DNA from: Heterotrichella gracilis
Taxonomy: Eukaryota > Sar > Xanthophyceae > Tribonematales > Xanthonemataceae
Assembly (NCBI GenBank): GCA_032358255.1
Contig: JAULBX010024405.1
Coordinates: forward strand, 124,001-188,000
Length of the DNA: 64,000 nucleotides
Direction: 5' to 3'
The translations under genes and the position numbers were made by a program. Position 1 is the stretch's first letter. The number at the start of each line of letters is the position of its first letter. Under the pieces are notes generated by a model. That model did no database searches. It was not told the DNA's origin and saw only the letters and a list, made by a program, of their open reading frames with translations. Shown here piece by piece: positions 1,071 to 64,000 of this stretch.

Positions 1071-2195
1071 CTAGTGGCTTTCCTCCTCCTCCCCATGCTC
1101 CTTCTCATGTGCCAGCTCATGCTCCCAGTGCTCAGCATGGCCATACTGCAGGACGGAACAGAACCAAGGTTCAGCATTAATAGCAAAGGAACGGGCAAGG
1201 GATGGAACCAAAGCTTAGCCTTGAAGCACAGCACAGCAGAAGACAAGGGATGACTTGGCTCCCAAATCGACACCACCCAAACGCACAGGAAAAAAACCAC
1301 AACCCAGCCAAGAACCACAGCAGCAGCACGCAAGCGAGGAGGAAAAATAGACTAGTAGCTGTATCACTGGTACTTCACCAACAGAGAAGAGTGTGTGCTT
1401 GCTGCACCCAAAGTGACACCACCCAAAACTCACCAACAGTGTTCTGCCATCATGGTACGCCCGGTAAAAGATCCAGAACCTGCAACACAGGTTGTGTCAG
1501 TAACTCCGTGCAGATGACTGTTAAGGATTGCAATACCGGCTTTGTCGATGACTCTGTGCAGCTCGTTTGTTTGATATGCCACCTATTCAACATGGCGTAG
1601 ATGGGTGTAGTGGATGGCACGCTGTGTAGTTCACCATTAATGTGGACATATGGGCAACCGTGCATTCTGTGTAGGTTGAGAAGTCACCTGAGAGGTCAGG
1701 GGTTTGGTTTACTAGGAGGTGTGGACAATATCCTACTAGCATATAGTGAATTCATGGTGTAGGTGGGGCACTCACCACATGGTCGCAGCCAGTCCCTCTC
1801 CCACGTACACGTGCCATTTGGCGGGTTTGTGCAGCGTCACCCCAGCGTACGTGACAGAGTCGCCGTGGTGCCCACCTGCTTCAGGTAAAGACTCAGGAAA
1901 GAGGACAGGGGAGCTAGGTGTCATGGGCGATGTGCAGCAACCCTTCGTTATGAAAGTGCAGTGCAGATAGAGGTTGTGCCAGCAGCTCCACGGTATCCTC
2001 TCCACTGCAGTACACCAAGAGGGAGGCTTTTCCGTCCCACCCACCTCCTGCGGCGAAGCCCCGTGATTGTTGGCCCTCTTTGAGCAGGGATTTGAGCCCC
2101 TGCGAACCAGAGCTACTGCTGGAGGATGCTGCGTGGCGAGTGGCAAGGCCCGAGAGCTGCTTCAGCTGCCTCGCAGCCCTGAAAAGCTGAGCCAT
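1071..2195 (-). CDS. NDUFB2: NADH dehydrogenase 1 beta subcomplex subunit 2-like protein (complex I)
   Basis: Small accessory subunit of mitochondrial complex I, in the membrane arm of the inner membrane. Four exons read on the minus strand: 2195-2045, 1875-1776, 1479-1434 and 1145-1071. All have GT-AG junctions, the phases agree, and the product is 123 residues. The N-terminus (MAQLFRAARQ ... SRGFAAGG) is Arg/Ser-rich and without acidic residues for about 40 positions, as expected of a mitochondrial presequence. The core GDSVTYAGVTLHKPAKWHV followed by GLAATMWFWIFYRA fits the plant NDUFB2 pattern (ITYKG-THPPKRWH-CAVMWFWILYRAK). The tail is His/Glu-rich (YGHAEHWEHE), also typical. The 46-bp exon 3 encodes the predicted membrane segment. 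The gene is divergent from the M23 peptidase gene. Family call is from remembered conservation; exon calls are by eye. Confidence 0.85.
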
Positions 2196-2929
2196 CGAAG
2201 GGCTACGAGCAGCTGTGCTGCACAGGGCTGGGCTGGCTGGCAAAGGTATTAGATACGTTGGGTGATGTGGGCACTGGAACACTGAGAGTGCCCAAGCTAC
2301 TGGTGTAGGGTGAGCAAAGACGAGTAGGGCTACTTCAGTATCAACCAATTGCCTCAACTGCAACCCTACCCCTTCTTTCTACGCAAAGCTTGGTTCAGAA
2401 TAACAGAATAACAGAATAATAAGCTTGGTTCCCGAAAGCTTGGTTCCTGGACCATGGCAGCCTCCCCGCACAACGTTACTCCCCTGTTGATTATTGGTAA
2501 ATTTGATCAAAAAATGATTAGACCTCGGGTTTGCCAGTTGTCTCTCTCCCAAGCTGCAGCAGCCCAACCCTCACCCGCCCGCGCAGCATCACATCGACAC
2601 GAAGTTGGGGCCCAACTTGGAGGCTCACGTTTACCCCTTGGGCGACTAGTGACGGAAGGTCTTGCTTTGCGAGCAAGGCATACATAAAGCGAACTCTAAA
2701 CACCCTCGCTGAAAATTCTCCACCAGCAGGTCACTGAATCCAGCACAACAGTCTCCCGCACTGCACCAGCACTGCGTAGTCCAACACACCGCTTCTATTG
2801 CCTGCAGACACTAGCACAAAACACGCTAGGCGCGTTACCACTCTGATTACCACCGTCTAGCTCTGGCAGTAACGGTCACAAGAACCCACAGCTGAAGAGC
2901 GTTTTTGGCGAGCTTTGTTGGTGTACACC
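2196..2929. promoter_or_regulatory. Divergent intergenic region
   Basis: 734 bp between two oppositely transcribed genes (NDUFB2-like and M23 peptidase), so it should hold both promoters. There is an AATAACAGAATAACAGAATAATAAG direct repeat at about 2400-2422 and a duplicated GCTTGGTTC near 2390, 2423 and 2440. No clear TATA box or other named element was seen. Confidence 0.35.
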
Positions 2930-5900
2930 ATGGCTACCTGTACAGCCACCCTGTTGACACTATGCACGCTGCTGCTAGCAGCCATCCCAGCCAAAGCAGG
3001 CAGGTTGCTCCTTCAAGCCTCACCCCCACCCCCACGTCCACCGCCACGCCCTCCGCGCCCCCCGCCACGCCCCCCACCATCCCCCCCACCACCATCGTGG
3101 AATACGGTAGGGCCTCCCACAAGCTCGTTGACCCCACACTCTTGCCCGCACCCTTGCACAGGGCTGGAGAGACAACCCATTGATTTGCATAACGGTGCAT
3201 TTTCGGCTCTACAGGAATGCAGTTAGAATGATGGTTCTGCGGGGGTAGGTGTAGGGTTAGGGTTTTTAAAGTTTGACCCGCTGTGGTATTGCGGCAGCAC
3301 TGTTCTAATAAGTTGTCACCCTCTCCTACCTCTTCCTCACCCACGCAACACTTTGCAGGCTGACGGTATGTATGACGCCAACATGCTGTGGCCTCTGTGC
3401 GGACGCATCGGTGATGGTTACGCAGGAGATACCTGCCCACCGGTACGGACCCGCTTGAAGCCATAGCATGTTCACAAGTACGCTAAATCGTAAACAGATT
3501 ATTCACAGGCTTGTAGTCTCCTGTCACCTCACAACCTGAGCGTTGAGCTTGTAGTACAGAATGCCCATTGTGCGCCTTTCACGTACTCGTAGGAAACTCA
3601 CATGCCTGCTCATCTTTTTTCAAGGGTACATTTGGGCACCTGCATACTTCCTGTGCTGAAACCTCAGCAAACAGACCTGACCACGCCGCATCCATTTCCC
3701 TTGCAGGAGCGCTGGGGCAGTGAGTCCTTCAGCGACTTCCCCCTCAATGACATAGTAGGGCCTAGGAAGAAGAGATCCGAGAACGACCGCTGCGACTGGC
3801 ACCGGGGCATTGACATCCACGCCAACATCAGCCACCCAGTGTTTGCCATCACAGATGGGGAGCTGTACGCTGTCACGCTGGACGCCACTGGCTATGATAA
3901 CAGCATCACCATCCGCCACAGGAGGTACATCAGTGTTAGGGCGGATACGATGTGAAACCGTTACTGAATGTATGCTACATCAATTCAAGTACTTTCCACA
4001 CAACCCTTCCTGCCAGGCCGTGCCATTAAGTCCCTTTGCTGGACCCTTGGCAAAACCCTTGGGCCCGCTCTTCTCTTTCCTCACTCCTGTACTTTAACCT
4101 ACGCGCCTCTTCAAGGACAGGTTGCGCACAGTTTACAAATATATCTCTGGCCATTCATCAACCCTGTCCCCCCTTGCAGGCCGGGTATCCCCCGCGACGC
4201 CACCGCCACTTCCTGCACCGCCATCGGCGGCGGGTGCTACTTTTCTGTCTACAACCACGTCAAGGATGTGCTCCTCCCGGGGATCACCTCCGGCTGCAGC
4301 CAAGGAGGAGCCAATAAATGCAACCTGCTCATTGCAAAGGGCCAGAAAATTGCCACAGTGGGCACCACAAACTACGGCGAGCCCAATGCCTTTGCCCACC
4401 TACATTTCGAGGTAGGTATATGGATCCATTGGTTAGTTACATGCATTCCAGCAAAACAGCCAGATTAGCAGTCAGTCTTGCACATGCGGCGCCACGCAGC
4501 TCTTGCCTGGCACTGTTTGAACCATCTATTGATCCCACGCGACTTGAGGCCCTGCTGGAGTAGGTCAGCCCACGTGGCCCTAGGCTTACCTACCCCCTTT
4601 GCCCCCTCTACCCTACCAAACATCATACATTTAGGAAGCCGATCATCTGATAAACGTCGTAAATGTCCCAACCAGCTTAGCCTAATGTCCCTTCATCCAT
4701 CCATTTGTTATTTAGCTATAATGGCGATTGTTCCTGTATTGAAGTGTTTGCTTGGTCATGCAGTTATCTCTGTACTGGTGTTCTTGTGCATAAGCATTGA
4801 CTCGTATTGCTTGTCTTAAAACTTATGAAACTTTCGCTACTTAATGTGGTTTGCGTACTTATTTACCTTCCTAACGTGATTAAAATTTATTTGCTTCCAG
4901 GTTCGAGATGCCGACCAGCGGCTCGACAAGTTTGAGCGGCTGGGCATGTGGCAGGCAGACATCATCACACCCCTCAGCGTCCCTGGCCTCAAATGGGCAA
5001 AGCCCGTGGCACCAACCCACTCCATCACCCTGCTTGCCCTCGACAACAGCAACGTGACAAACCCTAGAGTCTCGCTCAACGTCACCATTGACAAGCGTTG
5101 GGACTTCAACAGGTGAGGGTGTGCGCGGCTTTGCTGTTCCCTGTTCAAGAGCAGGCTGCGTAGCTACTTCTTTGTCTTTCTAAATGAAATATCGGGCATT
5201 AACTTAATGCATGGCATAGTTGATTAGTCTATGTCATTAATGCCATGCGCGCACTGCATTTTGCGCACCAGTGGTTGGCGCCACATGGTCTGCGGCAGCG
5301 CCCCCAACACATTATCCATTAGGCCAGGGGCCCTTTTCTCCCCGTGTTGGTCCCCATGACCGGCAGGATTTGCCTTTAGTTACATAGGGACCACTTGCAA
5401 GCTCATATGAGGGCACAGCATCCATTTACTTCCTTGATGGAAAGTCAGCCCATCCCCTTTCCTCCCCTCAAACCCTGCATTTTTAATCCCCTTTTCCTCC
5501 CCTTTGCAGGCTAGAAATCCGGCTCAAGGACGCATCTGGCGCCGAGATCGTGCAGGCCGGCGCCCTCAAAACCCTCAACGGGGTTTCCAACACCACCTAC
5601 GGCTACAACGCCTACCCCCCATTCATAGATGTGCGGGAATGGGGCCTGCAATACACCCACAGGTCAGAAATGTTTTGATTTCACCGCCCTGAGAATTGCT
5701 GTGGATTTTGCAGATTGACATGTATCCCCCTTGACATTTATCCCCTTGCATAGAGGGTGTGTGATACGCTGTGTTGCTGTGCCTTCAACTCCCCCGGGCC
5801 GGGAACCGCTCAGCCCGGAGAATTGCGTATGGCTTGCAAGCACTGTGGCGGGCTTGCCATCATTATATGTATATATCTCTAGTGTCATGGTAGATACGCA

Positions 5901-6368
5901 AATAACACCTTCAACAGCCCAATTGGCTCCCACGTGACTGCCTCACAAATCCTCTGAAATCCCTGTTACTGCACCCACAGGGACACCTCCTCCTCCTCCG
6001 GCTATCCCTGGGACTCCTTCGGCTGCAGCGGCCAATTCAAGTGCCCCTTTTGTGACAAACACGGCGCAGCCTACGACGCAGCCCTCCACCTGGACGCCTC
6101 CAAAGACCCTACAGACCCTATAGGGTCCACCATCTGCCAGTTCAACGGGGTGGAGTACGAGATGGCCCCCTTCGGCAGGCAATACACAACCTGGAGCTTC
6201 AGGGCTAGCTTCCAGCAGCTGGTTGCGCCTGTGGGCAGGCCTGTGGCAGCGGTGGAGGCGTGGGCTTTTGCTGCCGCGCCGCTGGTGCCTGCGGACCAGG
6301 CTTACAGCCCGCGGGGGGAGCTGCTGGTGGCGTATCCGATGGGGGCGGTGCCTCCAACCACGTATTAG
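2930..6368 (+). CDS. Secreted M23 (LytM-type) zinc metallopeptidase with Pro-rich stalk
   Basis: Predicted extracellular peptidase of the M23 family, whose bacterial and phage members cut peptidoglycan or Gly-rich peptides. Seven exons: 2930-3106, 3359-3442, 3707-3924, 4180-4411, 4901-5112, 5510-5662 and 5981-6368; phases agree and the product is 487 residues. Residues 1 to about 26 form a signal peptide (MATCTATLLTLCTLLLAAI). A PPPPRPPPR tract follows at about 36-56, like algal hydroxyproline-rich wall proteins. The zinc motif HRGID lies at about 119-123 and HLHFE at 233-237, matching the HxxxD and HxH ligands of M23. The ~250 C-terminal residues are of unknown fold and carry Cys pairs (CSGQFKCPFC). 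The start at 2930 was chosen because it begins the signal peptide. Intron 4 carries an antisense LINE fragment. The substrate is unknown; a wall or bacterial peptide target is inference. Confidence 0.8.
4434..4655 (-). mobile_element. 5'-truncated LINE fragment (copy 1)
   Basis: Lies in intron 4 of the M23 gene, antisense to it. Read on the minus strand it encodes a LINE ORF2 C-terminal tail: DDRLPK, VGKPRATWADLL, GINRWFKQCQARAAWRR, then a stop. The 3' end reads TGTAACTAAC. It is nearly identical over about 220 bp to the copy at 12480-12712, so both are fairly young. 5' truncation is usual for LINE insertions. Confidence 0.75.
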
Positions 6369-7682
6369 GTGTCAGATGTCATGATTGATAAACAACTTGC
6401 ATGGCCCTTTTTATCTTAATTTATGCCCCTTCATTTGTTTATATTAATACATTGGAATAGAACCTGCGTGATGGGCATCATGACTGCATACAGATACATT
6501 GCACACGTGTTCAGCAGATCAGCATAGCTATGAGCTGTTTATGACAGAGCCTGGCTGCGTTTCCCGCTGGCATCAACTGTTGTGCTGCCACAGTGGCGCA
6601 GTTGGGTCTGTCGGTAATCAGTCATTTGTTGCCGCCTGATATTTTGGATATCCATGTCTGTTGAACAAATAAATGCTGGGCCCCCCTGAGCCTCCACTGA
6701 GTGCACTGCCAGTATGGCATGCATGTTGAGAGACGGTCAACCTGATACTATTTGAGTAACTGTGGTGCGTAATTCTGTTGACTGGATAAATAGTATGTAT
6801 TCATGATGCCACGATGCTCGTTCACATTTGCAAAATGTATGGTAGTGTTTTTTCCAATGCAAAATGAACACTATGTGCCATTATCATGCATTGCTGTCAG
6901 CCGTTCGAACCCTATACCTATATTCAATAAGTTCCCAGTTTTGAGACCTCTTCATCACCATCAATCAGTTTCAGTGTTGCCATTCGAGGAGTGCAACAGT
7001 ACTAGCTAACTTAGAGTGTTGCGGTGTGACTCCATGGCGCAGTCTGGGGCGCCATCAGCTGCCATGAATGTAACATGCAATTTGCGCATTCATGTGCGTC
7101 CTCCCCATGATGGTTTGAGAATGCTGGATATGCAAGCAGTGCTCATACCCAGAGTCTGGCTGACTCAGTGGCGCTCCAGACTGCGCGCAGAGGCTTCTGA
7201 GCTGAAGCTCAATCAGCAACCTATGGCAACGGCTGATATGCTGTAACTAACTTATAATAAATTACATTCTCTTGACATATTGAAGCCAATGGAATTTATC
7301 GCTCGCATGCATGCTTAACTCATACTCAAGCTTTGCGCTTTGCCGGGATTCCAGCGGATGCACATGTGAAAACGCTGATCAGTGTTGACAGCAACCTAAG
7401 CAAAGGTTTCATTACTACCCCTACAAAATGCTGTATATTAGCAATAGCATACCAGCTACGCTCCCTCCGCTACAGTCTCAACCACTCAACCACACAGCGC
7501 ATGGCCTATTTCATTCTCTAACCAAATTCCCAATCCCTGGGAAATCCCAGTCAGCACTCCAGCCCCACCCCCTGCAGCAGGCCCCGCATGAAGGCACCCA
7601 TTTATGGAAGATCCCCCACAATTCTGTTGAACCAACTTCCAGGCGGAGCAATCCCCAAACCCCAATCCCGAAGAATCGATTG
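6369..7682. other. Convergent intergenic region
   Basis: Lies between the 3' ends of the M23 peptidase gene and the RAP-domain gene. No gene recognised. About 7552-7592 is a near-perfect copy of the last coding 40 bp of the RAP gene (7683-7725), including the stop codon. The rest is AT-richer sequence compatible with 3' UTRs. Confidence 0.5.
7552..7592 (-). repeat. Copy of the RAP gene's terminal coding end
   Basis: About 40 bp nearly identical to 7683-7725, encoding the same final residues (MRGLLQGVGLEC) and stop. It lies downstream of the true stop, in the 3' flank. Confidence 0.75.
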
Positions 7683-10600
7683 TCAGCACTCCAGCCCCAC
7701 CCCCTGCAGCAGGCCCCGCATGTAGGCATCCTGCGCCCCCCGGTCCTGCATCCACTCATAGAATGGCACGCTCACCAGCAGCCACCCACTCCCCCTGATC
7801 AGCCTATCCCGCAGCACCGTGCGCCCCATGGGCAGGCAGGGGAGTGAGCTAGTATAGTGCAAGGGGCCGTCGGCCTCGATGGCGATGCTGGGCTGGCCTT
7901 CCCGGAGCACTGCAAGGTCAACGGTGATATGATTCTCTGTGACGTGCTCATACAGAAATCGCACCCCAAGCCTTTTCAGGCTCGCCGCCACCTGCGCAAG
8001 GGGGACATCGGTGGTTTTTCCCCCCCGGATATTATTGTTGTTCCCTACAGCATGTTTTGAGCCGATTTGCCCAGTCACGGGGAGGTGGAATGCCATTCCC
8101 AGGGGAGGGGAAACAACAGGCAAAAACCCACAAAATAAACACAAATTATACATAATTAAAAACCAGACAAAGGTAGAACGCAAAGGCAAAGGGGTGAGTA
8201 TGTGGACATGTTACCTGTCGGTGGAACTTTGAGTCCAGTGAGGGTGTGACTAGCCAGTTGCCCAGCACCTTCTCCTCCAGCTGGGGTGGCAGCGAGGAGG
8301 TGGGGTCGCCATCCTTGATGCGCACAGACAGGTCAGCCTGGCAAGGGGGAAAAGGGGAGGGAATCAACCACTGATTTATATGCTTGTTTTTAACGATTAC
8401 TGGTTGGAATTTATTATTATGTCATAATATCCTTGATGCGCACAGACAGGTCAGCCTGGCAAGGGAGGAAAGGGGAGGAGATCAAAGCTTAGATTTTCAA
8501 TTGTTTTTGGAGATTCAAGCATAGTGTTTCTGTTTATGCCATGTAAGCAGCCTGGCAAGGGGAGGGAAGGGAAGGGAGGTCTAGAATTTAGGTTCTCATC
8601 AAGTCACCAACTTCCTTGTTGGCCAGCAAGCTTGCACCAGGCCCATGATGGTCAAGCTATCAGTTGATACTCATTTCATAATCAGACTAACTAGATTTTA
8701 TCCCGGCCCAGGGCCAGCAAGCACGCACCTGGTACAGCTGACCCAAGTTGTCGGTGACGGTGATGGCGCCGTGGGGGGTGTTTGCAGCGCAAAACCCAGC
8801 CACGCCCTGCAGAAAACAAGCAAATTGTAATTGGTTTCAGCAAAATGGTATCACATTTGATGTCACATTGACTACGCAGAACCAAGCTGCAACCTGGTCT
8901 TGATATGCGTTGAGTACATGACCATATAATTAGCAAAAACTGCATGTCCCGTACCTCTAGGAAATCCCTGTCCAGCTCGTCAAAAACTGCCAGGGACCAC
9001 AGCGTCATCCCCATGCCCTGCAAAATCAGAAATAGAGGTTGATACTTAGATAAGGTAAGAATAATGGACCTTGGTCATGACCAGTCCAGCCGCAAATCAA
9101 GAAGCCATGTGCACATTCCGAACAGGATGGATTTCGATCCCGGGGAGACAAGGTCGACATGGGCCACATATGCAAAAGGAAATGGAAGCATAAAAAATGT
9201 ATTTTGAAAACTATTATCACAACAGCAGTGATCAATACCAGAGTACGGTATTTTACTTGGTACCTGCCACTCGTTGGCGCCCAACTTCCCCTCCGGCTGT
9301 CTGGCCAGCGCCTGTAACAGCACCCCCTTGCCCGTCTCCAGGACAGACCTGGAAGCAAGGGAGGACTTGCAGATTAAGAATGTTTGAAGTTCCTCATTAA
9401 TGAGGACCCGCCACAATTCTTGCAGGGAAACGGGGCCTCACGGAGGTCATAGGGTCCAGGTTGGAGGGTTTTGTTTTCTTCTAGGACGTACCTGGGGATG
9501 GGGTAGTACACCGCCGCGCAAGACCAGAGCACCAGCGAGGCCTCCCGCAGATCGTAGGAGCGGTGGTTCCTTGCAAAGTGGGTCAGCACAGCGGCAAAGA
9601 GGCGCCGGGTGCAGGGGCCCGAGTACCTGCAAATGGCAGTGGAAACAAGGTTATTCAAGTTGGCATGGAACCACAAACTGGTGCCCTCTGATCAGCGTCT
9701 GCAGCAGCCAGGTGCACCAACAGGGCTTGTTACAACAGGTCTTGTTTATACACATGTAACTAGTTATATATGAATAAACAACTTGTATTTCTGGCCATGT
9801 GGGGGATCAGCATGGCGCCCTAGAGGACCCTAGACCCTACACCCTAAACGCTAAATCCTAAACCCTAAACCCTACCTCATGTTGGCAAACGATACCATGC
9901 AGCAAACCGTGTCAAGCTTGCTCCAGCGGTAGGCCGATAGACACTCAAACCATAACCGACAAACCCTAAACTTGCTTGCTGGAACGCGTGTAACTAGCCA
10001 ACCACCCCTACCTCATGTTGGCGAGCGACACCATGGTGTACCGCCCCTAGAGGAATTCAAACCCTACACCCTACACCCTGAATCCTAAACCCTACCTCAT
10101 GTTAGCAAACGACACCATGCAGCGGACCGTGTCCGCAAGCTTGCTCTCGAGGACCAGCGTGGTGCAGCGCAGGGCAGCCCCCTCCATGAACCGAATCTCA
10201 GGCTGATAGGGGGTGAGCGATAGGCCGTACAGCATGCCCGAGAGGGCGGGGGGCCCGCATGCAGCCAGCATGGGCTGAAGGTGGTGGGTGGCGGCTTCCA
10301 ACACAGCTACCACCTCAGGGTTGGCCTGGGCGCAAAGCAAAATTATTTAAGGATGATTTGGTTTTTAATATAAATTGTTTTCATTATTTTTGTTATCGTT
10401 GTTGCTCGTACTTCATTATTTGGCCTGGGGGAAGCAACCGAACAAAGGAAGAAGCAGATGAAACAAACGAGTTAATGGGGGAAGTACGCACATGACTAAC
10501 TGCTCAGATAAAGGCATGAAGGGATGTACAGATGATTGATTGGATCCCATGTGAATGAATGCAGGAATAACTTGGATACACGGATACAGCAATGGACAAA

Positions 10601-13600
10601 TGAATGAAGTAATCCTGAAACATGTATAAAAGTAAAGGATGAATGTAAGTATGGACAAAATGTTGATCCATATGGTATACCTATCCTGAACAGGCACGTT
10701 GTGCAAGGAACTCCCCTCTCATCCATGCATACCTGTGGTGAACAAACCATATGCCCTAAACCCTGACCTGGACACCTGTACCTGTGGCGACCACATCTTG
10801 CCGAAGCCGTAGATGAGGTTGGAGGTGTTGAGCTCCGAGCAGTAAGGGATGGCCCCCAGGGCAGCACGAGCAAGGCGCTGTACAGCCTGCGGAGGGTGAG
10901 GTTATAATTTTAGGGTTTAACAGTTGCGTAGCTGCATGCATTATAGCAATAGAGCTCGATAAGCCGCCAGGTTTGAAGTTTGCGGGTGCGGATGCATTAG
11001 CAGATGAGGTTTAGCTGATGAGGTTTGAGGTGTTGAGCTCCGAGCAGTGCGGGATGGCGGTAAGGGCAGCACGAGCAAGGCGCTGTGAAGGGGGAGGCTG
11101 TGAGGGGGGGGAGAGGTCAGGTTGTGGGGTACGTGGACGTGTTGCAAGAGCATTTCAGGTCTAGGAAGGGAGCAGCAGGGCAAGCATCACCACCACTGCC
11201 ACCGCCACCCACCCACCTCCAGTTACAATCCCGAACTCCCCAGCTTCTAGCACCTAAGGCAGCACAGCAGCACTGCCCCCACCGCCCCCGCCACCACCAC
11301 CACCGCCACCAACAACAACAACAACAACACCACCCACCCACCCACCTCCGGTTCCAGCTCCAGCCCAGCATTCCCCAGCGTCCACATGAACTGGGACAGG
11401 TTGGCGGCATCCAGCATGGGTAGACTATCCAGCACCCGAGGCAGCAGCGCAGCGCAGCACCTCTTGGAATCCACAGGCAGTTCCGTCAGTCGCCACATCA
11501 TGCCCAGCGCTTCGGCCACAGAGCAGGCGGTAGGGTCCTGCGCGATTTAAATTTTAGGGGTTTAGGGTTTCGGCTATATCGTAGGCGGTGTGGTCCTGCC
11601 GGGAGTCTTAAACCCTACCAGCAATGCAGGGTGTAGGGGTTTTAGGGTATCTTGGAATCCACCGGCAGCTCGGTGAGTCGCCACATCATGCCCAGGGGCT
11701 CAGCCACAGTGCAGGCCGCGGTGTCCTGCGGGATAGGTGGTAGGGTTTTAGGGTTTTGGCCATGAATGCAGGTGGTATAATGCAGTGGAGCAGGCGCCAA
11801 CACAACCATTCCACTACCGCCACAACCCTCCTCCACCACCACCACACACCTGCATCAGCTCCACTGCCTGCCGCTCCACCTGCTCCCACAGCCTGGGGTC
11901 CAAATACTCCACCAGGCGGCTGAATGAGGAGAGCAGGGAGTAGAAGCTGAAGCCAGAGCGGATGGACAGCAGGTTGTAGGTTCGAACCTGAAGGGGGAAG
12001 GAGGGGACATTGGTGGCTGTAGCCTGCATGAAGCCTGGGAGATTTATGTGTGTGGACTAACCGTTTGGGGCCCAACAAACCCTGAACTCAAACCCTACAC
12101 CCAAACCCTCTACAACCCTGGCCTCGCCTCATCCACCACCCAGCGCCAAACCCTGCAACCGCCAAACCCCCTTAACCCAAACCCTAGCATCGCCCCTTCC
12201 AGCCCTACCAAACCCTGTGCCTAAACCCTAGCCTCACCTCCTCCAGCACCGCCTTCAGAAAGTCCTCAAAATCCCTTCGGCACTGCTCATCCACCGGGGG
12301 CATGTTGGACAGCGCCTGCAAGCGAGTGCACAGAAAGTTGAATTTAAGCGAAGGGTTATAGGGTATTGAGGCTTTAGAGACCATTTCGACACAGCTCATC
12401 CACTGGGGGCATGTTGGAGAGCGCCTGCGGGGGAGGACTCACATGGAGAGTGGCATGAGAGTCTAGAGTTAAGTTAGTTAGTTAGTTACATGCATTCCAG
12501 CAAAATAGCCAGATTAGCAGTCAGTCTTGCACATGCTGCGCCACGCAGCTCTTTCCTGGCACTGTTTGAACCATCTATTGATCCCACGCGACTTGAGGTC
12601 CTGCTGGAGTAGGTCAGCCCACGTGGCTCTAGGCTTACCTACCCCCTTTGCCCCCTCTACCCTACCGAACACCATACATTTAGGAAGCCGATCGTCTGAT
12701 AAACATTGTACTAGGATTGTCAATTGTAATAGGGTTTTCAATGCAAGGCTACAGCAGTTAGGGTTTTAGGGTTCCCTCGCAACCGGGTTTTAGAATTTTA
12801 AGAGGATTCACCTGCAGCACCATGATTGTGGTGTCACAGTTGGGTGGGTCCACCCCTGAGGAGGCGCCTCTTGCTCCTGTAGCTTGAGCTGGCGGTATCA
12901 CCGGATTTAAGGTTTCAGGGGTTTCAGGGTTTTTGCTCTAGGGTTTCAGGGATTGGGCGACCCACTCACCTGCAGCACCATAATGGTGGTGTCGCAGCTA
13001 GGCGGGTCCACCCCTGTGGAGGCGCCAAGTGCCGCCTCTTGCTCCTGTTGCTTGAGCTGGCGGTAGCGCCTGCCCACCACCGCATACATGTCGGGTTGCT
13101 GACAGGGGAACATGCGCGCCACGCTCCATATCACGTTGCCCAGGCCTGCAAAGTGTGGAGATTTTCGTTTTTAGGGCTTGGTTTGCATGCTGGCATCATT
13201 TGTCTTACTGCTGAGAGGATTTGGGGGCACTTGGTTAGGGTTGTCGTAGGGTTTGGTGAGGGTTTGTGTGGCAAGGGAACATGCTGGCAAGGGAACATGC
13301 GCGCCACGCTCCATATAACATTGCCCAAGCCTGCAGAGTTTTGACAGGGTCTGGTCAGGGTTTTGATAGAATTTTGCTAGGGTTTCATTAGGTGTTGGTT
13401 AGTGCTTTATTTTGGGTCTGCACGGAGTAACAGAGAGATCATATAACGCCAATCCTGCAGGATTAGTAGCTGACGCCCTCTCTTCCCTCCTCCCCATCCC
13501 CACCCCTGCCACCCCCGCCCACCCCCATTATCCACTTGCAGTTATAGCTGGTCCACCCCCACCACCACCTACCCCCTCAACTCCTACAACAGCAGCCAAT

Positions 13601-15302
13601 TCCCCCTTCCCCCCTTACATACAACCCACCACGCTACCACCCACCCCACCCACCACCACCACCATCACCCCACCACCACCACCCACCTTGCAACTGCAGC
13701 TGATCGACCCGCGCCACCACCCACTCCCGCACCTCCAGGAACACAGGCTGCCACGTCACCTGGTCCCGGATGCCAGGTGGCAGCGCGGGGTGGTTGAGCA
13801 GGGCCGCGATGCGGTGCAGGATGGTGGAGGCGTTGACCACATCCAGCGACTCGGAGCAGGTGGCCCACAGGAGAGAATAGTGGTCAAGCGCTTGTTGCAA
13901 CTGCGGGCAGAAGGAAAAGGGAGTTTTTTGGGAGATCCTTTGGGGCTGAGCAATATTGTTTGGGTTTGTGAGGCAATTAGAGGGTACTGGGGAGGGTTTT
14001 GGGTAGGGTGGTGGTTGCGTTGACCACCTCCAGCAACTCGGAGCAGGTGGTCCAGGAGGAGAGAGTAGTGGTCAAGCGCTTGCTGCAGCTGTGGGGACAA
14101 AGGGATGTTTTTTTGGGATTGAGGACAGCTGGTTTGGGATTGTGAGGCAAGGGGGGCGAGGGTTTTGGGGAGGGTTTTGGGTAGGATGGTGGATGCGTCG
14201 ACCACATCCAGCATCTCCAGAGCAAGTGGCCCACGGGAAGGAGTTGCGGTTTTGGGGTGGCAGGGCTGCGCCAGGAGCCGATCTGCCACATTGGCCATGT
14301 GCACTACCGCCACAAGTGCTGGGTTCAGCACATTTGTTGACTTCTAGTCAGGATGCACCCCCATGTCCACCCCCCCACCTGCAGCTTGAAGTTCTCTGAG
14401 TTGCCCACATCGACCGCTGTGTGTGGATCTGAGAGCTGCGCCAGGAGCCGATCCGCCACGTTGGCGATGTGCACCGAGGTCTGTTTCACTGAGGAGAACC
14501 GAAACCTGAACCTCTGCTTGGCGGTCGGGGGCGCCACCGATATCGCCAGCAAATCTCTGTGGTAAAAAAAAGAAATTAGAAGGTAATTGACAGGGATTTG
14601 TCTCAGGAGTGTACTGTACTGTAGAGGGTGACCCTTCTGTTTGGTGGAAATTCCGAAGCGCGCCATTTGAATGCAACATGCTGTGTGTCACAACCAGGTG
14701 TGCCAAATATATGACGTGCATTTGAAGGCAGCCATGCTGCTTAAAAGCTGGAATGCAAAAACAAATGCATACCTGCTTGCGTATGGACAACCGCGCTAGC
14801 GCCTCTGCCACCATTGCTGCCCCTGCCCTTACCTAGGGGAGGCATTGATGCGCTTGTACAGGGGGAGGTGGATTGAGCGCCGCCGCTCAGCCCCGGTGGC
14901 TGCGGCAAGCTTCCGTCGATTCAACCTCTCCTGTTCCCTGGCAGCAGCTCGCTCTGCCTGGTGGTGGCGCCGCTGGCTGGTGGCCGCGGTTTCGAGGCGC
15001 GCGAAGGGAGGGTACTGGGTGGGTGGTGGGGGAGGCGGTGGTGGTGGTGGTGGTGCTGTCTCCGGGAGGGAGTAGTATGTGGTGATGTGCCAGGGGCGGA
15101 GGCTGTGCTTCTGCGGACAGGAGGCGGCGGTGGTGGTGTGGTGGTGGTGGTGTGGTGGTGGTGGTGGGGCGGGAATGGGTCTGGGTGAGTGTGTGTGTGT
15201 GTGTGGTAGGTTGTGTGGTTGGTGGAGATGTCTGTCACAAAAACATTGTGGGTGCTTGTTGTGCACTGGCTTGGCAGTTGTGCTGGTGTGCTGCAACACC
15301 AT
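7683..15302 (-). CDS. RAP-domain RNA-binding protein, probably organellar, with OPR-like helical repeats
   Basis: RAP proteins act in plastid or mitochondrial RNA processing and translation. Fifteen minus-strand exons were traced: 15302?-14833, 14556-14379, 13900-13687, 13145-12970, 12315-12238, 11987-11850, 11537-11346, 10886-10782, 10325-10096, 9626-9492, 9348-9264, 9017-8955, 8806-8729, 8337-8215 and 7991-7683. All phases agree, giving about 857 residues. The C-terminus has the RAP signature (IAIEADGPLHY ... RDRLIRGSGWLLVSVPFYEW). The middle has repeated motifs of the type N-LxWxL-xxx (FMWTLGNAGLEL, NVIWSVARMF, LVLWSCAAVYYPIP, MTLWSLAVF), like octotricopeptide repeats; this is inference. 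The first exon is uncertain: it is His/Pro-rich low complexity and further 5' exons may lie at about 15650-16031. At least nine introns or flanks contain exon-edge copies. Confidence 0.8.
9878..10125 (-). repeat. Triple copy of the exon 9 donor edge of the RAP gene
   Basis: The edge CCTCATGTTAGCAAACGACA (plus-strand reading) of exon 9 at about 10095 recurs, slightly diverged, at about 9878 and 10012. Each copy is joined to CCCTAAAC-type heptamers. The two outer copies lie in the intron downstream of the true exon. Confidence 0.7.
11027..11095 (-). repeat. Exon 8 echo of the RAP gene
   Basis: A diverged copy of the 5' part of exon 8 (10825-10890). It shares GTTGAGCTCCGAGCAGT and GGCAGCACGAGCAAGGCGCT and lies upstream, in the intron, in the gene's sense. 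Confidence 0.7.
11648..11735 (-). repeat. Exon 7 echo of the RAP gene
   Basis: Copy of the 5' part of exon 7 (11458-11545), still encoding GMMWRLTELPVDSK. It lies in the preceding intron and retains an acceptor-like edge. Confidence 0.75.
12391..12431 (-). repeat. Exon 5 echo of the RAP gene
   Basis: Copies the acceptor edge of exon 5 (12284-12323), encoding ALSNMPPVDE, and lies upstream in gene sense. Confidence 0.7.
12480..12712 (-). mobile_element. 5'-truncated LINE fragment (copy 2)
   Basis: Near-identical to copy 1 at 4434-4655 and in the same sense as its host, the RAP gene, in the intron between exons 4 and 5. The 3' tail, read on the minus strand, is a short TAAC tandem repeat (about 12474-12487). 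It encodes the same RT tail (DDRLPK, GKPRATWADLL, GINRWFKQCQ). Confidence 0.75.
12812..12895 (-). repeat. Exon 4 donor-edge echo of the RAP gene
   Basis: Diverged copy of the 3' half of exon 4 (12970-13055), encoding GVDPPNCDTTIMVLQ, in the downstream intron. A second echo at about 13282-13335 copies the acceptor edge of the same exon, so exon 4 is flanked by echoes on both sides. Confidence 0.75.
14011..14304 (-). repeat. Echoes of RAP exons 3 and 2
   Basis: About 14011-14097 and 14184-14238 copy the acceptor side of exon 3 (13818-13905). About 14267-14304 copies an inner part of exon 2 (14437-14474). All lie in the intron between these two exons and preserve coding-like text with frame damage. 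Confidence 0.75.
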
Positions 15303-23342: not shown

Positions 23343-25586
23343 CTCAACCTTCCCCGCGTCCTCCCCCAAGTCAACACCATGTTGCACACCCACCACCACG
23401 CCGGTGCCGGCGACGCGCTGCGCAGCAACGCCAACCAGGTGCACGAGGATGTGCTGGTGCAGGTCAACCCTAGGGTAACCTTCACCGCCTCCAACGTCCG
23501 CGGCAAGGTACGCCGGGCACCCTACAAACCCTACACCCTAGCTAGGACATGTCGCTGGTTGAGTCGCGCATTGTGTGACTAGTCAGCAGTAAGGCGTGTT
23601 TTGTTGTGCAGTCCTGTTCAAGTATGAGCGAGTATTGTTACGTACTGCACCCCCACCAACCCCTGCCTGTAGCGAGGCTCATGTTCAACCCTTGCTTGCA
23701 ACCCCCTCCTCACCCACCACCCCCACCTGCAGGACGGCAGCGCCTCCAGCCACCTCCACCCCACCGTGGCCCTGCGCAAGCGCATCCAGGACGTTGACCT
23801 GTCCTTCTACTTCACCGACGAGAGCGTGAGGGACGTGGAGAAGCTGCCCGACGCGCTGGTGGCGGCAGACGCAGACCTAGGCAGCCTGCTGGGTGAGCAC
23901 ACCTGACCCTGTGATACCCTTCATCCTGACCACGCTTGTGCGCCCTAAACCCTTCTGCTACCCTTCTGCACCGCCTGTGCGCACACACACACACACACCT
24001 CCTGCGGGTGGCCCCTGCAGCCTCCCTGGTGAGCACCCTTGACCATGTTTAGACTTTAGGCACTGGTGGCGGAAGACGCCAACTGAAACCCTTCTGGCAC
24101 CCCTCGCGTACCGCCTGTGCGCACACACAAAACCTCCTGTCTGCCTGCCTCTGGCACCAACGCCTTACACCCGTGCTACAACCCACACCCACCGGCGCCT
24201 CCCTCCTCATCTTAACCCCCCTCCCTTCTCCCCCCTTCTGCAGAGGGCCTGCAGGGCCAGGTGGCCTACAGCATCGGCGACCGCTCCGCCCGCGTGCGCG
24301 GCAAGTACAGGCGCTCAGTGGAGGGCCGCGATCTCGACGTGCAGGCCACCTACCTGCAGTCTGGCAACGCGCTGTTCCTGGAGGGCTCCCTCCAGCTGGA
24401 CATCAACAACCGCATCCGCGCATCGTACGTGCCCAAACCCTGTGCAAGGGTTTTTGTAGGTTCTGTGGCGTCTTTACCCACACGTGTGTTGCCAGGAGTT
24501 GCCAGTATAGTAGCACCTCACCTCTGCTACTTATCACCGCCAAACCCTATTCCGCAGCTGTACACCAAGACTGCGGCCCACCTGCTTAATAGGGTTTACC
24601 TGCCAGTGGGGCATCTGTAGGTGAACTCCCTGCCCTCTAGCGATTTACACACACGTTCTCCTCCCTCTGGACCCACTTATTTCTCCTCCCCCCCTTGTGC
24701 AGGTACAACGCTGGCGATGGCTCCCTCCAGGGCCGCTTCCTGCACAGCGTGGCTGACGGGTCATGGAGGGGCTACCCAGTGGAGCCACCCACCGACCCCC
24801 TGTCATACGCCAACGGGTACGCAACCCCTGCAAAACCCTAACCTGACCAGTGGACTTCAGGGTTTAGGGTTTGCTGGTATCGGGGCTACTCAGTGAGCCG
24901 CCCACCAACGCCTCGTCATATTGTATATTGTGTTCAGTTGCAAGGTCTTTCTTGTCCGCACTAACTGACATGCTTTTGCTCCTTTTGAGCCATGTGTGCT
25001 GTGCATGACCCTCCCTGTGCGCCCCTAGCCCCCGCCCCCCTGCAGCCCAAACCCCAGACCCTAACCCCCACCTCACCCCCCTCTCCTGCAGGTATGACTT
25101 TGCTGGCAGGTCCGGGACAGTCTCCTACGAGTGGCGCAAGGACCAGTTTGGCGTGAACCCCTTGTACGACTTCGCCCGCAACTCCCTGCGCATCACCGGG
25201 TCGTGGGCACGCGACGAGGACACCGTGCGCGCAACCTACGACGTGGCGGACGAGCAGGGCGCTGTTGAGTGGTTCAGGGCCCCCTTCAGGGTACGTTTCC
25301 CGCCGCCTAGTTGCTGCAATGGATCCTTTATCTGAGCGTTCGATGTGGGTGGGTGCGCTTGCCGTGCTGCTATGTACCTGTGGCATAGTACCCACCCCTC
25401 TAGTTTGAGTGCTTCACTGTTTTAGGGTCGTGCATGCCTGCGCAGCCTGCGCAATCTTTGAAATTGTGAAATCTTACTGACCTGCTGTGTTAATTGCTGC
25501 AGGTGGTGGCCACCGCCCGCGTGAACAACGACGGCGTGAGCAACATCAACGCGGGCGTGACCATGGAGAAGGCATGGGACTTCTAG
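23343..25586 (+). CDS. OEP24-like plastid outer-envelope pore protein
   Basis: OEP24 is a beta-barrel solute channel of the plastid outer envelope. Exons: 23343 (or start ATG 23379)-23507, 23733-23892, 24244-24424, 24703-24816, 25092-25290 and 25503-25586; phases agree and the product is about 288-300 residues. The C-terminal half resembles plant OEP24: LFLEGSLQLDINNRIRASY (compare T-LDGTLVLD-NKVSA), PLYDFARNSLRITGSW (compare CYDLAKNSWDFAVSR), DTVRATYDV, GAVEWFR, and a final WDF. The N-terminal third (LPRVLPQVNTMLHT...) is not like the plant protein. Whether ATG 23379 or an upstream exon starts the protein is open. Echo copies of exon edges occur in the introns near 24020-24150 and 24870-24915. 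Confidence 0.65.
24020..24150 (+). repeat. Echo of the OEP24 exon 2 / intron 2 boundary
   Basis: Diverged copy of about 23860-24000, with CACTGGTGGCGGAAGACGC matching exon 2 and the following ACCGCCTGTGCGCACACAC intron text repeated. A tandem duplication of an exon edge plus intron, with a CA microsatellite at about 23983-24000. Confidence 0.7.
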
Positions 25587-54125: not shown

Positions 54126-57100
54126 CTAGGGTCTAGGGTTTCCAACAGCGAGCACGGGTTGAAGGCTGGGGTCCGCCACAAAGGATCCAAATTTGGATAC
54201 CAGGGTGTGCTCCTTCATCTGGGGATCCCCAAGCAGCTGCAGGCATTCGATAAAAGCCTGCGGGAGGGGGAAGGGGTCACGTGGCGGGGCAAGTGGAAGG
54301 GTGCATTGGATCCCAATGGTAGGGCATGCAGGGAGGGGCAATTGGGGCATGTGGCAGGCCAAGAAATGTATGTATTGGTTGTCATGACGGAGGTCACATG
54401 GTAGGGTCCATATGGAAAAGGATCTATGGCAAAAGTATTCCAAAGCGGAGTTGGGTGGCGCAAGCTTGTGCAAGGCTATTTGCTAATCTGGTTTTCGTGC
54501 CGGAATGCACATAATGATAATGATAATGGAGTGTATCCGCCAAGTGGCAGGGAGTGTGGGAGGGCAGTGCACACAGGCTGCTGGTAGCAACCCTCCCCCA
54601 CCACCCATCGCCACCCCAAGAACCCCGACCCACCTGCGAGTGGTCGACCCTCCCACCCCCCACCACCGCCACAGCGTTGTCGTCCCCAGCGAGCACAGGC
54701 TGCATGAAGCACCCCGCCAGGACCTCCTCTAGGGTACTGCCAGGGTTTGCCTGCAGGCCCAGCACCCGCTTGTACTCATCAAACAGCCCCTGGCCCCCCA
54801 AGGTGGGCGATATCACCAGGGAGGAAACCTGGGAGGAAAGAAAAGGAGCGGGAGGTTACTGGGATGCACATGTGTATGTAAGCAAGGACATATGTACTGC
54901 ATCCAGCGGTTACAGAGGTACCCGCTGGAGGTACCCGCTGTTTTATGAGCAAGGCGCGGGTGCTGGGCAATAGCCAGTCCCACAGCAGGACCTTAGATCG
55001 CGCAATATGCATTATATAAGCAGTGCCAGGAGCAAGCTGCTAGGCGCCGCATGCGCAAGGCAGATTGCTCATCTGGTTGAACTGCTGGTTTTTACTTTCT
55101 TTGTTTGAACCCTAGCGGTGCATACCTGTTTCTTGAGGAGTGCAGCGCGGTGCTGGGAGCGGCGCTGGGCGATGGCTGGGTCCAAGCGGGGCCTAGGTGG
55201 CCTTGGGGGTGCCTGCTGCGGAGGCGGGGGCTGCCAGTTCTGCAAGTAACAGGTGCTGCTGTGTAAGTTTTCGAAATGTTGGCTTTGTGGTGGATGAAAG
55301 GGTAAGAATGTTATAACAGGGCAAAACGCGACTGGAAGGACGGCCATTCCCCTGCCCACACACAAATGAACGCTTAGGGTTAGGGCCAGGGCTCAAAAGG
55401 CACGAGTCATCCACCATGGGTTAAATAGCATGCCGCCCCGCCTGCGAACCGCCACCGCCACCGCCACCGCCACCACCACCACCACCATCACCACATACCT
55501 GTCTGTGAAGGTTGGGGCCCGGTCCCGGCCCCGGCCCCGGCCCCTGCCCTGGTCCCTGCCCGGGCCCCTGCCCGGGCCCTTGTCCTTGTCCTTGTCCTGG
55601 TCCTGGCCCTGGTCCGAGTCCCATGGGAGGGCCTGGCATGGGGGACCGCATGGGCGGGGGGGCGCCTCGTGGGTGCACCGACACCATGGGCACAGTTATC
55701 ACCTGGGGAGGGGTGTACCCGGCGTTCTGCGGCGGCACACGGGGGTGTTGGGGTCAGTGCAAACATGGTGGATGTGTTTCAGAAATGTTCATGCAGAAAT
55801 TTGGTCCTGGGGGTGCACCGACACCACGGGGATAGTTATCACCTGGGGAGGGGGGTAGCCGGCGTTCTGTGGGGTGCGTGGGGGAGAGGGGGTGAGGGTG
55901 CTGGCGGTGGTAGTTTGAGGTAGAAACTGTAAGAGTGTGATGATTGAGAGTGTTTCGACAAGCATGGGAGGGTGGCTCATGGAATGCTCGCTCATGACTG
56001 AAAATTTGTGTGTGCGTAAAAGATTCACCTCAGCTGGCAGGTGTAACCTCGTGTGCAAGGGGAGGAGGAGAATTCAAGGGGGAGTGTGCAGGTAGGATGT
56101 TCAAGGAATGTCCATGGGGAGGGAAGGGGGTTCCGCCTACCTATGGCCGCATGGGCCCATTCAAGTTCATCTCCTTCAAGAAGAGGGGCAGGAATTCCAC
56201 ACACAATGCTTAAGGGGGGAAGGAACAGCAAGGGAGGAAGATAACAAGGGGAAAAAGGGGAAGTGAGCATGGGGTTCCGCCTACCTGTGGCCGCATGGGT
56301 CCATTCATGTTGATCTCCTCCAGGAAGATGGGCGGGAATCCCTCCCCTCGCCCACCCCACCCGCGACCCCCCCTGCCGCCTCGGAAAGGGCCCCTGCCGC
56401 CGCGCATACCGCCACCTGCACACCCCATAGGCAGGTGTCAGAAGCAAACACAGGTAAACCCTAGACCCAGACCTTAACCCTAAAAAGACTTGAAGCACAC
56501 GAAAATGATGCACCCTAGCAGCCACAGCACCACCAGGGGTCAGGAGCCAACAACACAGGTAAACACTAAAGCCTGAAAAGGGAACGACGATGCACCGTAG
56601 CAGTCACAGCCCCAAGGGTGCCAGGAGCGTCATGCGGCATGGAGAGAGTGCCCAAGATAAGAAGACTGAATGCACGAGCGTCAGTACAGCGCTGCATGGG
56701 TTGCAGACATCCAAAGTACAGTTAGTGCCATGATCATGGTCCGTACAATGCCGCCATAATGACCCAATATGCACTGACAACAGAACAGGAAGAGCGATGA
56801 TTGCCGCCATCAACAGTGCAATATATGCTAAGCCCTTGACCCTACCCAAAACCCTGGACAAATGGAGTGTACAGCAAATGCACTGCGTAGTGACACACAC
56901 AGCCCTGCAGCACTGGTGTCAATGCCTCACCTGGGATGAACCCCCTGCCTCGCCCTCCAAACCCTTCTCCTCGCCCTCCAAACCCTTCCCCTCGCCCTCC
57001 AAACCCTTCGAACCCTCGGCCCCTGCCGCGCATGCCGGAGCCGCCAAAACCCTCCCTGCGCAAACCACATCAAGGGTGTTGTCTAGTCCCTGACAGGCCC

Positions 57101-61428: not shown

Positions 61429-64000
61429 ATGGCGCTATCACAGCTAGCGCAGACCTGCATGCGCTCCGTCAGGCTAGCAGTCTCCAGCCGCATCTCGATT
61501 CCAGCAGTTCAGTCAGCCTGCCGTCACCTGACCAGCACCACCACACCACCACCACCACCATCATCGTCAGATTCAGACTCGGACGAGGACTTGACAACAA
61601 TCCCTGAAGAAGCTTTCCAAGAAGAAGTTTTCCATGAACCAGAGGCCGCCGAGGAACAAGCAGCCGAGGAAGAACACCATGAACCAGAGCCCGACTCTGA
61701 GGAGGAGATGAACGAGGAGGAGATCGAAGCATGCATTGCAGCCGCTTTCGATGACGACGCTCCACCACAGTACACGCTCAACCTGGCGGGGCCCGGGCAG
61801 CCCGCATGGCACATCATTGACGTGGATGAGGAGGCAGGGTCTGGCTACTATGGCTACGACCTGATAGGAGGAGCGGTGCCAAACAACGAGCAGAATGCCC
61901 TGCTGTCATTGGACGCCAAGCAGCTGATCTTCAAGCTCCACCGTGAAGACCCAAAACTGTACGTTTTGGTTCCAGCCCTGTTTCAGGCTTTTGCCTTGGT
62001 GCTAGGAGTGCTTGGTTGGGGATTCCTGCACTTCACCTCACCGAGCACACAAATGCTCCACATATGCCTTATGCCCTCCAAAACACATAGTGAGATAAGC
62101 AGTCTGCCCTACATGCCTTGCGCCAGCCAACCCTGGCACTACTTATACCATACCTGCATGGGCAACAAAGCACAGCTGCGCCATGAAGGGCAAGGGCATT
62201 CTCCCAACCAACATGCAGATGCCTCACCACCAAATCGTAACGACCCACAACCCGTCATTTTTCCGGGGTACCACTGCTCGATTCCCCGCTTATCTTCCCG
62301 CAGGTGGTCCATCCCCAAGCTGGCCAAAACCTTCAAGATCCGGCAGCAGCGGGTGCTGGCCATCATCGGACTGATTGAGCTGGACAACCAGCGCATCGAG
62401 GCCGGGGAGGTTCCCAACCGGGAGCTGAACGAGCACATGCACCTTGACCTGTGGGAGTGCATACACAGCCGGGGGAGCGGGGAGCGCCACGTGCGCAACC
62501 TGCCCACACAGCCCAAGTTTGAGGTGAGACTGCCTTCCTGCGGCATGTAACTCCTGGTCAGTTAGTTGAACACGCACGTGTTGCTGGGTGGTGGTGTGCG
62601 CAACCGGGAGCTGAAGCAGCACATGCATCTGGACTTGTAAGAGTGCATACACAGCAGGGGGAGCGGGGAGCGCTACGTGCGCAACCTGCCCACACAGTTC
62701 AAGTTTGAGGTGGGTACCACTAGGGCGCATACACCACCTGGTTAGCCAAATACAAGCAGCGCATTGAGGCGGGTGATGTAGGGAACGAAAGCTGAACGAG
62801 TGCACATGCATCTTGACATGTGGGAGTGCATACACAGCAGGGGGAGCGGGGAGCGCAACGTGCGCAACCTGCCCACACAGCCCAAGTTTGAGGTGGGCAC
62901 TGCCTCCCTGGGGCATGTAACCGCTGAAACTTGGTCAGTTAGTTGAACACGCGCGTGTTGTTGGGTGGTGGTGTGCCCAACCGGGAGCTGAAGCAGCACA
63001 TACATCTGGACTTGTGGGAGTGCTTACATAGCAGGTGGAGCGGGGAGGGCACAAGCATGCAGCGCATTGAGGCGGGTGATGTACGAACTGAGAGCTGAAC
63101 GAGTGCACATGCATCTTGACATGTGGGAGTGCACACACAGCAGGACAGCGCAATGGGCGCAACCTGTCCACAGATCATAAGGTTAAAGTGGGACCGCCAG
63201 GGCGCAGCCACCTGCCATCTATCCCAGTTCACCCATCAGCACTCTATTCAGAGAAACATGAACACATGGGTGTGCACAGCTGCAAACATTATTTCTGGTG
63301 TCCTGGCGAGGATTTCACGAAACCCTAATCTAAACCCTCCCCGGCCAACAGCTGGTGGAGCCATCCACCCTTGGTGCGCAGGCCAAACCTAGCACCACAG
63401 TGATCAAGATTCCACTTCTAAACCCTAACCCTAAACCCTGCCTTGGGCGCAGCTGGTAAGCCATCCACGCTTGGCCCGATGCCAAGTATGGCACCACGGG
63501 AATGAAGATTCCACTTCTAAACCCTAATCCTACACCCTAATATGCACACAGCTGGTGGAGCCAACCATGACACCACAAATATGAAGATTTCATTTTTACA
63601 TCCTAACAATAAACCCTCCCTTGGCCGCAGCTGGTGGAGCCATCCACCCTTGGCCCGGATGCCAAGCCCGGGACTGCCGTGAGCGAGGTTGCGCACGTGG
63701 AGGACATCATTGCCAAGCAGGAGGAGGAGATGATGGTGGAGGAGTTCATGGCCAACCTGTCCTACAACATGGGATGGGTACGTGGGTGGTGCTTGCGCGG
63801 TTGTTGCAGTCCAGGTGTTTGGGAGAAAGACAGGGAACAGGCGTTCATGACGGTTGATCCGGGCCTGTTCTACGTGTACAGTTCTGTTTGAATTACCGCA
63901 ATGATCACATATCTGGTGTTCTTGTGGAATGTAAGCCATTGTGTAAGGTGTATCCACCTGCTGCCGCTGCTAGGGTTTAGGGTTAAGGTATCTTCCCTGT
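61429..64000 (+). CDS. Acidic mitochondrial protein, possible mS45/Bot1 (EMR domain) type; 3' end outside the window
   Basis: Exons 61429-61958, 62304-62523 and 63631-63777 join in phase and continue past the window. The first ~37 residues are Arg/Ser/Ala-rich and end in HLTST, as a mitochondrial presequence. A long Glu/Asp/Pro region follows, then IFKLHREDPKLWSIPKLAKTF and KIRQQRVLAIIGLIELD. This pattern, a short 'hydrophobic-x-Asp-Pro' helix followed by a helix-turn-helix-like segment, resembles the eukaryotic mitochondrial regulator (EMR1/Bot1) domain found in mitoribosomal mS45. That family call is tentative. The third exon is a Glu/Met-rich helix. Intron 2 (1.1 kb) is made almost wholly of copies of exon 2's end and exon 3's start. 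Confidence 0.6.
62590..63140 (+). repeat. Four echoes of the exon 2 end
   Basis: Copies of 62420-62523 begin near 62600, 62775, 62980 and 63085. Shared text includes AACCGGGAGCTGAA, CACATGCATCTGGACTTGT, GTGCATACACAGC-GGGGGAG and CCCACACAGCCCAAGTTTGA. Some copies retain the GAGGTGGG donor. Confidence 0.9.
63340..63600 (+). repeat. Three echoes of the exon 3 acceptor edge
   Basis: CAGCTGGTGGAGCCATCCAC (true edge 63629-63648) recurs at about 63349, 63449 (CAGCTGGTAAGCCATCCAC) and 63549. Each copy is followed by AAGATTCCACTTCTAAACCC-type text with CCCTAA heptamers, at about 100-bp spacing. Confidence 0.9.

Follow-up and report, generated by a model that had tools for sequence, protein, structure and literature searches.

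Gene content of the window and sampling

The DNA analysed here is a stretch of 64,000 nucleotides from Heterotrichella gracilis (Xanthophyceae), positions 124,001 to 188,000 of contig JAULBX010024405.1 in the assembly GCA_032358255.1, and is called the window below. It is eukaryotic DNA with many introns, and introns of several of its genes contain partly decayed copies of the near end of the neighbouring exon, termed echoes. The window was studied with 20 further stretches (189 kb) sampled from the 68.5-Mb, 903-contig assembly. Gene models were predicted ab initio with a small self-trained gene finder, one sampled stretch (L010) being left out. L010 has a GC content of 0.376 over its positions 1-10000, open reading frames of up to 658 amino acids and no local direct repeats, and is perhaps a foreign or organellar contig. 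The repeat families described below were counted over the window and the other 19 stretches (243 kb).

The predicted models comprised 48 gene units with 460 exons and 412 introns (median length 254 nt), and showed a MAG/GTRNGT donor and a TGCAG/G acceptor consensus. Among them are genes for eL19 (by a PDB match), a bestrophin, an acyltransferase, a Vps18 beta-propeller and a family-20 glycosyl hydrolase, and several exons and proteins of the models match Pfam or PDB. Kinesin, RAP, M20 and M23 families were matched by single open reading frames of the window, M23 and one M20 piece scoring below the Pfam cut-off. The best named matches of the bestrophin protein (51-55% identity) are from green algae such as Parachlorella, Trebouxia, Coccomyxa and Monoraphidium. 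Known RNA families (Rfam gathering score) and tRNAs were not found in the window. The gene finder merges some neighbours, for instance the acyltransferase with the bestrophin, and labels some echoes as exons; the merged models of the window were split by hand, which gave 13 gene units.

Short-range direct repeats lie at exon edges

Self-BLAST of the window and the 20 stretches with a fixed search space, a self-alignment that the first-pass annotation of the window had proposed as a check, revealed 137 direct versus 14 inverted pairs less than 1 kb apart, and a Markov-1 control, one per sequence, gave 0 matches. The repeats are mostly 50-700 bp apart, with no direct pair at 700-1000 bp and a single one at 1-5 kb; 102 of the 137 direct pairs are spaced 75-250 bp, close to the 75-200 bp initially claimed. 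At least one direct pair was present in 15 of the 20 sampled stretches and repeat families in 16 of the 20 sequences counted.

Exons of at least 40 nt (382) were then compared by BLAST with introns of at least 60 nt (322). Predicted exons below 40 nt were kept within introns in this comparison, and likewise in the family labels where they overlap repeats. Of the 644 adjacent exon-intron pairs, 46 gave a match, compared with 8 of the 122,360 remaining pairs, in agreement with the claim that echoes exceed chance, and this also outside the window. The polarity announced for the copies was equally borne out. The 20 matches upstream of an exon held the acceptor edge only in 17 cases, both edges in 1, neither in 2 and the donor edge only in 0; the 26 downstream matches held the donor edge only in 21 cases, both edges in 1, neither in 4 and the acceptor edge only in 0. 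Single-edge matches are therefore 38:0 in favour of the near side. As a whole, introns of the same gene match 3,007 of 68,609 exonic bases (4.4%), in 19 of 43 multi-exon gene units.

Of the 81 families into which the repeats were grouped, 62 contain an exon edge, 10 contain exon sequence but no edge, 8 consist of intron alone and 1 lies in intergenic DNA. Masking of low-complexity sequence was considered as the cause of the small number of intron-only families and rejected, since no further family emerged from an unmasked search to which we applied a complexity filter of our own. Of the 8 families labelled intron-only, two in fact hold mini-exons that our relabelling had counted as intron, and another two may contain edges that went unrecognised, which would make the preference for edges stronger.

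Echoes along the window

At a threshold of E≤1e-3, the window holds 22 families in 8 of its 13 gene units, and a predicted exon edge lies inside a family in 6 of these 8 units; at this threshold the figure of at least nine of thirteen genes put forward from first inspection is not reached. The best defined case is the eL19 gene (plus strand). The 3' end of its predicted exon 17926-18068 with the following donor (18040-18108) recurs, by self-comparison, at 18134-18202 (86% identical) and at 18258-18326 (79% over 61 nt). If it were exonic, the piece 18148-18162 of the first echo would insert 5 residues that are missing from the best-matching solved eL19.

The RAP-domain gene (minus strand) carries 10 of the 22 families. 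Its last codons and stop (7682-7731) have a 96% copy in the 3' flank (7550-7599), inside which the gene finder called a terminal exon at 7551-7571. Acceptor edges with copies upstream of them are found at 8311-8367 (echo 8429-8485, 93%), 11462-11577 (copy 11650-11763, partly predicted as exon), 12276-12319 (copy 12385-12428, 91%, where 12404-12424 is a predicted exon) and 13097-13154 (echo 13282-13339, 90%). Donor edges have downstream echoes in two places, 10045-10146 with its echo 9818-9923, both containing telomere-type repeats, and 12966-13065 with its echo 12808-12897. Parts of exons are repeated at 10812-10881 and upstream of it at 11017-11086 (90%), and at 14262-14304 and 14432-14474. 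Finally, tandem units of about 187 bp have copies at 13818, 14005 and 14183 (13818-14250).

On the plus strand, the acyltransferase gene shows about 3 units of 73-74 bp from the donor of the predicted exon 28692-28784 (28775-29005). An exon end at 30972-31039 has a downstream copy (31136-31203) that is also a predicted exon. In the bestrophin gene, exon 32250-32432 is followed by a copy at 32521-32595 (duplicated region 32353-32595), the exon part 33759-33848 is preceded by an echo at 33555-33644 and then degenerate telomere-like sequence, and the donor edge of the predicted exon 34544-34611 is followed by tandem units of 76-78 bp (34578-34773). Further on, an exon edge of a mitochondrial-ribosomal-like gene has four decayed downstream copies at spacings of 107-671 (62384-63212), and the acceptor edge of the predicted exon 63631-63777 is preceded by units of about 99 and 79 bp with CCCTAAA repeats (63320-63668). 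In the gene unit at 20-25 kb the family is an intron-only duplication (23947-24129, plus strand). Both families of the 54-57 kb unit surround mini-exons (minus strand, 55671-56342), duplicated at 55671/55811 and 56127/56271, each copy being bounded by ag and gt. At the left end of the window, the predicted gene end 1044-1085 (minus strand) has a 3'-flank echo at 898-939.

Other repeats were also seen in the window. A 233-bp dispersed element, probably a short mobile element, occupies 4429-4661 and 12478-12710 (95% identical) in two predicted introns; it has 824 candidate places in the genome, and the 40 that were scored are 92-100% identical. A minisatellite with 30-bp units (8.2 copies, 96%) lies at 44907-45150 in the region of an M20-peptidase-like gene, and about 14 units of a 42-bp repeat at 48272-48873 form part of a long predicted coiled-coil-like exon near kinesin motor exons. 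This minisatellite and the coiled-coil repeats (44-49 kb) were dropped from the family counts.

Splice sites and coding state of the copies

In the alignments, an echo takes in about 25-110 nt from the end of the exon together with the splice site and part of the intron. Outside predicted exons, 23 of 25 acceptor echoes and 30 of 36 donor echoes retain the splice dinucleotide. Among the intact ones, 57% of the acceptors and 70% of the donors score above the lower quartile of real sites, versus 4.9% and 4.5% for other intronic AG and GT, and the echo site equals or beats the true site in 22 of 53 cases. The decoy splice sites that had been proposed are real, and most echoes retain strong ones. 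In pairs of at least 90% identity (12 acceptor and 8 donor), the identity profile breaks sharply at the splice site. It is about 0.9-1.0 on the first 25 exon bases and about 0.4-0.6 on the intron bases just past the splice consensus, for a null of about 0.2-0.4, the profile being ungapped, so that indels lower the intron side.

On the exon side, 49 exon-intron pairs showed 25 gaps, of which 22 have lengths that are not divisible by 3; these 22 fall in 13 pairs. In 1002 compared codons, the copy has a stop 6 times. Many copies are clearly non-coding, though most families are without a frame break. No in-frame rule was detected for the spacing of echoes, distances modulo 3 being distributed as 21, 24 and 16. 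Moreover, 44 of the 46 adjacent matches cover at most one exon end, unlike mutually exclusive or alternative tandem exons, in which a copy would have both ends with their splice sites. Polarising the changes in families with several echoes gave 44 exon-derived and 218 echo-derived changes; these families overlap and some of the 'exons' are themselves echoes, and only the third-position excess was used. In one sampled stretch (L014, 3400-3990), a family-20 glycosyl hydrolase exon recognised by Pfam is accompanied by one heavily decayed copy and one of 94%, the latter with GGNEV where the exon has GGDEV.

Telomere-type repeats near the echoes

Rotations of TTTAGGG/CCCTAAA lead the enriched intronic 8-mers, as for instance AACCCTAA, with 38 occurrences for 0.2 expected (first halves). 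This heptamer covers 0.8% of exons, 1.0% of intergenic DNA and 2.1% of introns away from families, and near echoes 4.1% of family flanks, 6.2% of intronic copies and 8.0% of spacers. Near-perfect (TTTAGGG)3 runs are intronic in 27 of 28 cases; the motif is of the plant type and need not be this species' own telomere repeat. The heptamer is present in 44 of 74 introns having a family versus 101 of 243 without (p 0.008). It lies at most 30 nt from the inner end of an echo in 18 of 60 families, a share that is 10% for random intron windows (p 1.5e-5) and 8% for windows matched by position; it lies at the outer side in 17 of 60 families and 60-90 nt away in 6 of 60. Part of this enrichment can be explained by repeats that duplicate along with the units, and CCCTAAA near acceptors may double as a branch-site motif. 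Examples of intronic plant-type telomere repeats in the window are at 9827-9874, 34600-34740 and 63380-63600.

Origin of the echoes

Intron-side homology above the 95% null was found in 61 of 104 edge pairs (the pairs overlap and are not independent families, and two degenerate self-rows were scored as failures). Arrays of whole units including intron were observed at L017 3225-3620 and L020 900-1340, so that tandem direct repeats with a unit holding both intron and exon sequence are present. Polarity, intron-side homology and whole-unit arrays together support tandem units that bridge the exon-intron boundary. In these respects the boundary-bridging tandem duplication initially suggested fits the data; it does not account for the excess of edges, nor simply for the extent of the homology, whose core spans a median of 0.41 of the spacing (0.32 in pairs of at least 90%, and the full spacing in some arrays). 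A lenient anchored extension gave a weak signal only (p 0.07 and 0.04), extensions being partly limited by the spacer.

The most likely reading, to which we give a probability of roughly 0.6, is that most echoes are relics of repeated boundary-bridging tandem duplication, the surplus edge being left in the intron and its dummy sites ignored. Segments mostly of 75-250 bp straddling an exon edge would duplicate in tandem, repeatedly. Splicing would stay with the site beside the intact exon, so that the surplus edge becomes intronic and the protein is unharmed, and each duplication would add one unit length to the intron. The surplus edge would then decay as a mostly non-coding relic that keeps a strong dummy acceptor upstream or a dummy donor downstream of the exon, intron decay being probably ruled by indels of tens of bases that shorten the recognisable homology. 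The dummies are most likely ignored through exon definition, the intact exon's own acceptor and donor forming the closest pair.

Five observations weigh against this reading. The ratio of non-synonymous to synonymous divergence (dN/dS) between exon and intronic copy is 0.35 (0.26-0.44; 60 pairs, 47 families), below the 0.53-0.57 that simulation gave for a neutrally evolving echo next to an exon under constraint. By class of divergence, beginning with the closest pairs, the ratio is 0.20, 0.38, 0.34 and 0.46, the value for pairs of at least 90% being 0.20 (0.08-0.46). Either the exon outpaces the echo at synonymous sites, or constraint acts on echoes for some time, or the copies had diverged beforehand. 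A frame-breaking exon-side gap occurs in only 12 of 40 families. Significant intron-side homology is absent from 13 of the 20 edge pairs of at least 90%. Counted by family, the association with the heptamer is weaker, 36 of 81 family spans holding one as against 32% (sd 5) of random spans. Finally, no simulated tandem model gave an edge share above 0.61, while 47 of 56 families were observed with a single edge.

The last point bears directly on ordinary random tandem duplication followed by neutral decay, in which edges would stand out only since the exon copy is conserved. Geometry and polarity fit this explanation, whole-unit arrays exist and large indels can shorten the homology. With few indels, a core/spacing ratio of about 1.0 is predicted, and simulation with ordinary decay gave medians of 0.94-1.01 whatever the level of identity, the unit including an edge in 539 of the 1122 cases detected. 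The simulations omit multi-edge units (294 of 2800) and exon-only units (276), and were hence compared with the single-edge families, 47 versus 9 without exon sequence, 15 further families having two or more edges in a copy. When each substitution was accompanied by 0.5 or 1 indel of 10-69 nt, the simulated core/spacing fell to 0.40 and 0.37 and the number of gaps per mismatch was 0.08 and 0.15 (0.11 in the data), and the edge share reached only 0.55 and 0.61, a further round of simulation giving 0.49-0.58. The simulated shares of 0.48-0.61 differ from the observed one with p values of 2.6e-8 and 1.8e-4, families being taken as independent. Random blocks of equal size include an edge in 30% (core) or 47% (full unit) of cases and are intergenic in 16%, versus 1 of 81 intergenic families observed. 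Plain random tandem duplication with point-mutation decay was thus rejected by simulation, for both its core/spacing and the excess of edges, and with indels allowed the random model still seems unlikely. The edge preference is unexplained by every model run, and something beyond random tandem duplication concentrates or preserves edge copies.

The low dN/dS, the strong splice sites and the 28 of 40 families without a frame-breaking exon-side gap speak for functional alternative or mutually exclusive exons under selection. We consider it quite unlikely that the copies are such exons, given the matches that cover at most one exon end, the predominance of frame-breaking gaps, the stop codons, the residues that the eL19 copy would add and the GGNEV of the glycosyl hydrolase copy. 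Spaced templated insertion, by which a repair polymerase would copy an exon edge into the intron 75-250 nt away without any tandem unit, could account for the several pairs of 93-100% that lack significant intron-side homology; it also predicts acceptor-edge copies downstream of exons, which the strict near-side polarity contradicts, and with homology on the intron side in 61 of 104 pairs it is very unlikely. If contigs from diverged haplotypes or strains overlapped and had been joined one after the other, copies already diverged, with synonymous differences, would result, and the assembly is in 903 contigs. Such an artefact is highly improbable in view of the three to five copies of graded divergence, the absence of Ns from the window and the sampled stretches and the spread of families over 16 of 20 sequences; haplotype duplication was rejected for the two gene regions tested, each of which has one match in the assembly.

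Under repeated boundary-bridging tandem duplication, the edge preference would mean that exon edges and gene bodies are duplicated more readily than intergenic DNA, and the TTTAGGG repeats found alongside the echoes suggest that the duplications may begin with intronic breaks close to an exon edge and with the repair of these breaks. In mammals, according to the portion available of one report, double-strand breaks are sites at which short telomeric runs become inserted, in some cases together with a duplication of the flank (PMC7215372). With this precedent, the repair of breaks close to exon edges is a plausible, though unproven, cause. The wider proposal, that transcription- or splicing-linked repair of intron breaks aims duplication at exon edges, leaves telomere-type repeats at the seams and lengthens introns lineage-wide with dummy sites that exon definition tolerates, is put forward tentatively and is rather doubtful as a whole.

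Relation to known systems and significance

Short local duplications, paired or tandem, are found in animal genomes as direct, short-range repeats of small units; we know of none centred on exon edges. Introner elements are near-identical introns at many unrelated sites, from which the present matches differ in being local (46 adjacent versus 8 others). The type of event has a precedent in a potato gene, where the available part of the report describes a boundary-crossing tandem duplication from which a new piece of exon and an additional intron arose (PMC4974935). As here, the 3' side of an intron and the 5' side of the next exon were duplicated directly in tandem, the copy inheriting the intron signals; the potato case, as described there, concerns one gene and a new intron, whereas 62 edge families were found here in 243 kb, the intron being most likely just lengthened. 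The statement that no system of this kind had been described at this density was therefore too strong as to the type of event. Unannotated tandem exon duplications (PMC9013439; Exonize, PMC12343006) likewise place exon-homologous sequence in introns of the same gene. The portions available of these sources deal with exon duplication in general, unlike the mostly one-edged fragments of strict polarity seen here. By a method that differs from ours (4.4%), the accessible portion of PMC9013439 puts the exonic bases matching introns at about 2% for human, 0.08% for fly and 0.06% for worm. Interstitial telomeric sequences are short telomere-type runs inside chromosomes, with flanking direct duplication at some loci and duplication only at 3 of 66, as far as the accessible text goes (PMC7215372); here the runs are concentrated in introns and are known from one genome. 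Boundary-crossing duplication is hence already known, and its density, polarity, edge preference and association with telomere repeats appear new in the literature searched, subscription papers aside.

These results address two open questions, how introns lengthen without transposons and how the spliceosome passes over near-perfect false sites. By extrapolation, 62 edge families in 243 kb would correspond to roughly 17,000 loci in the 68.5-Mb genome. The true site beside each echo is a matched control, which makes splice-site choice and exon definition testable in one species. If confirmed, the focus on exon edges, together with the telomere-type repeats, would link the local duplication of DNA with gene bodies.

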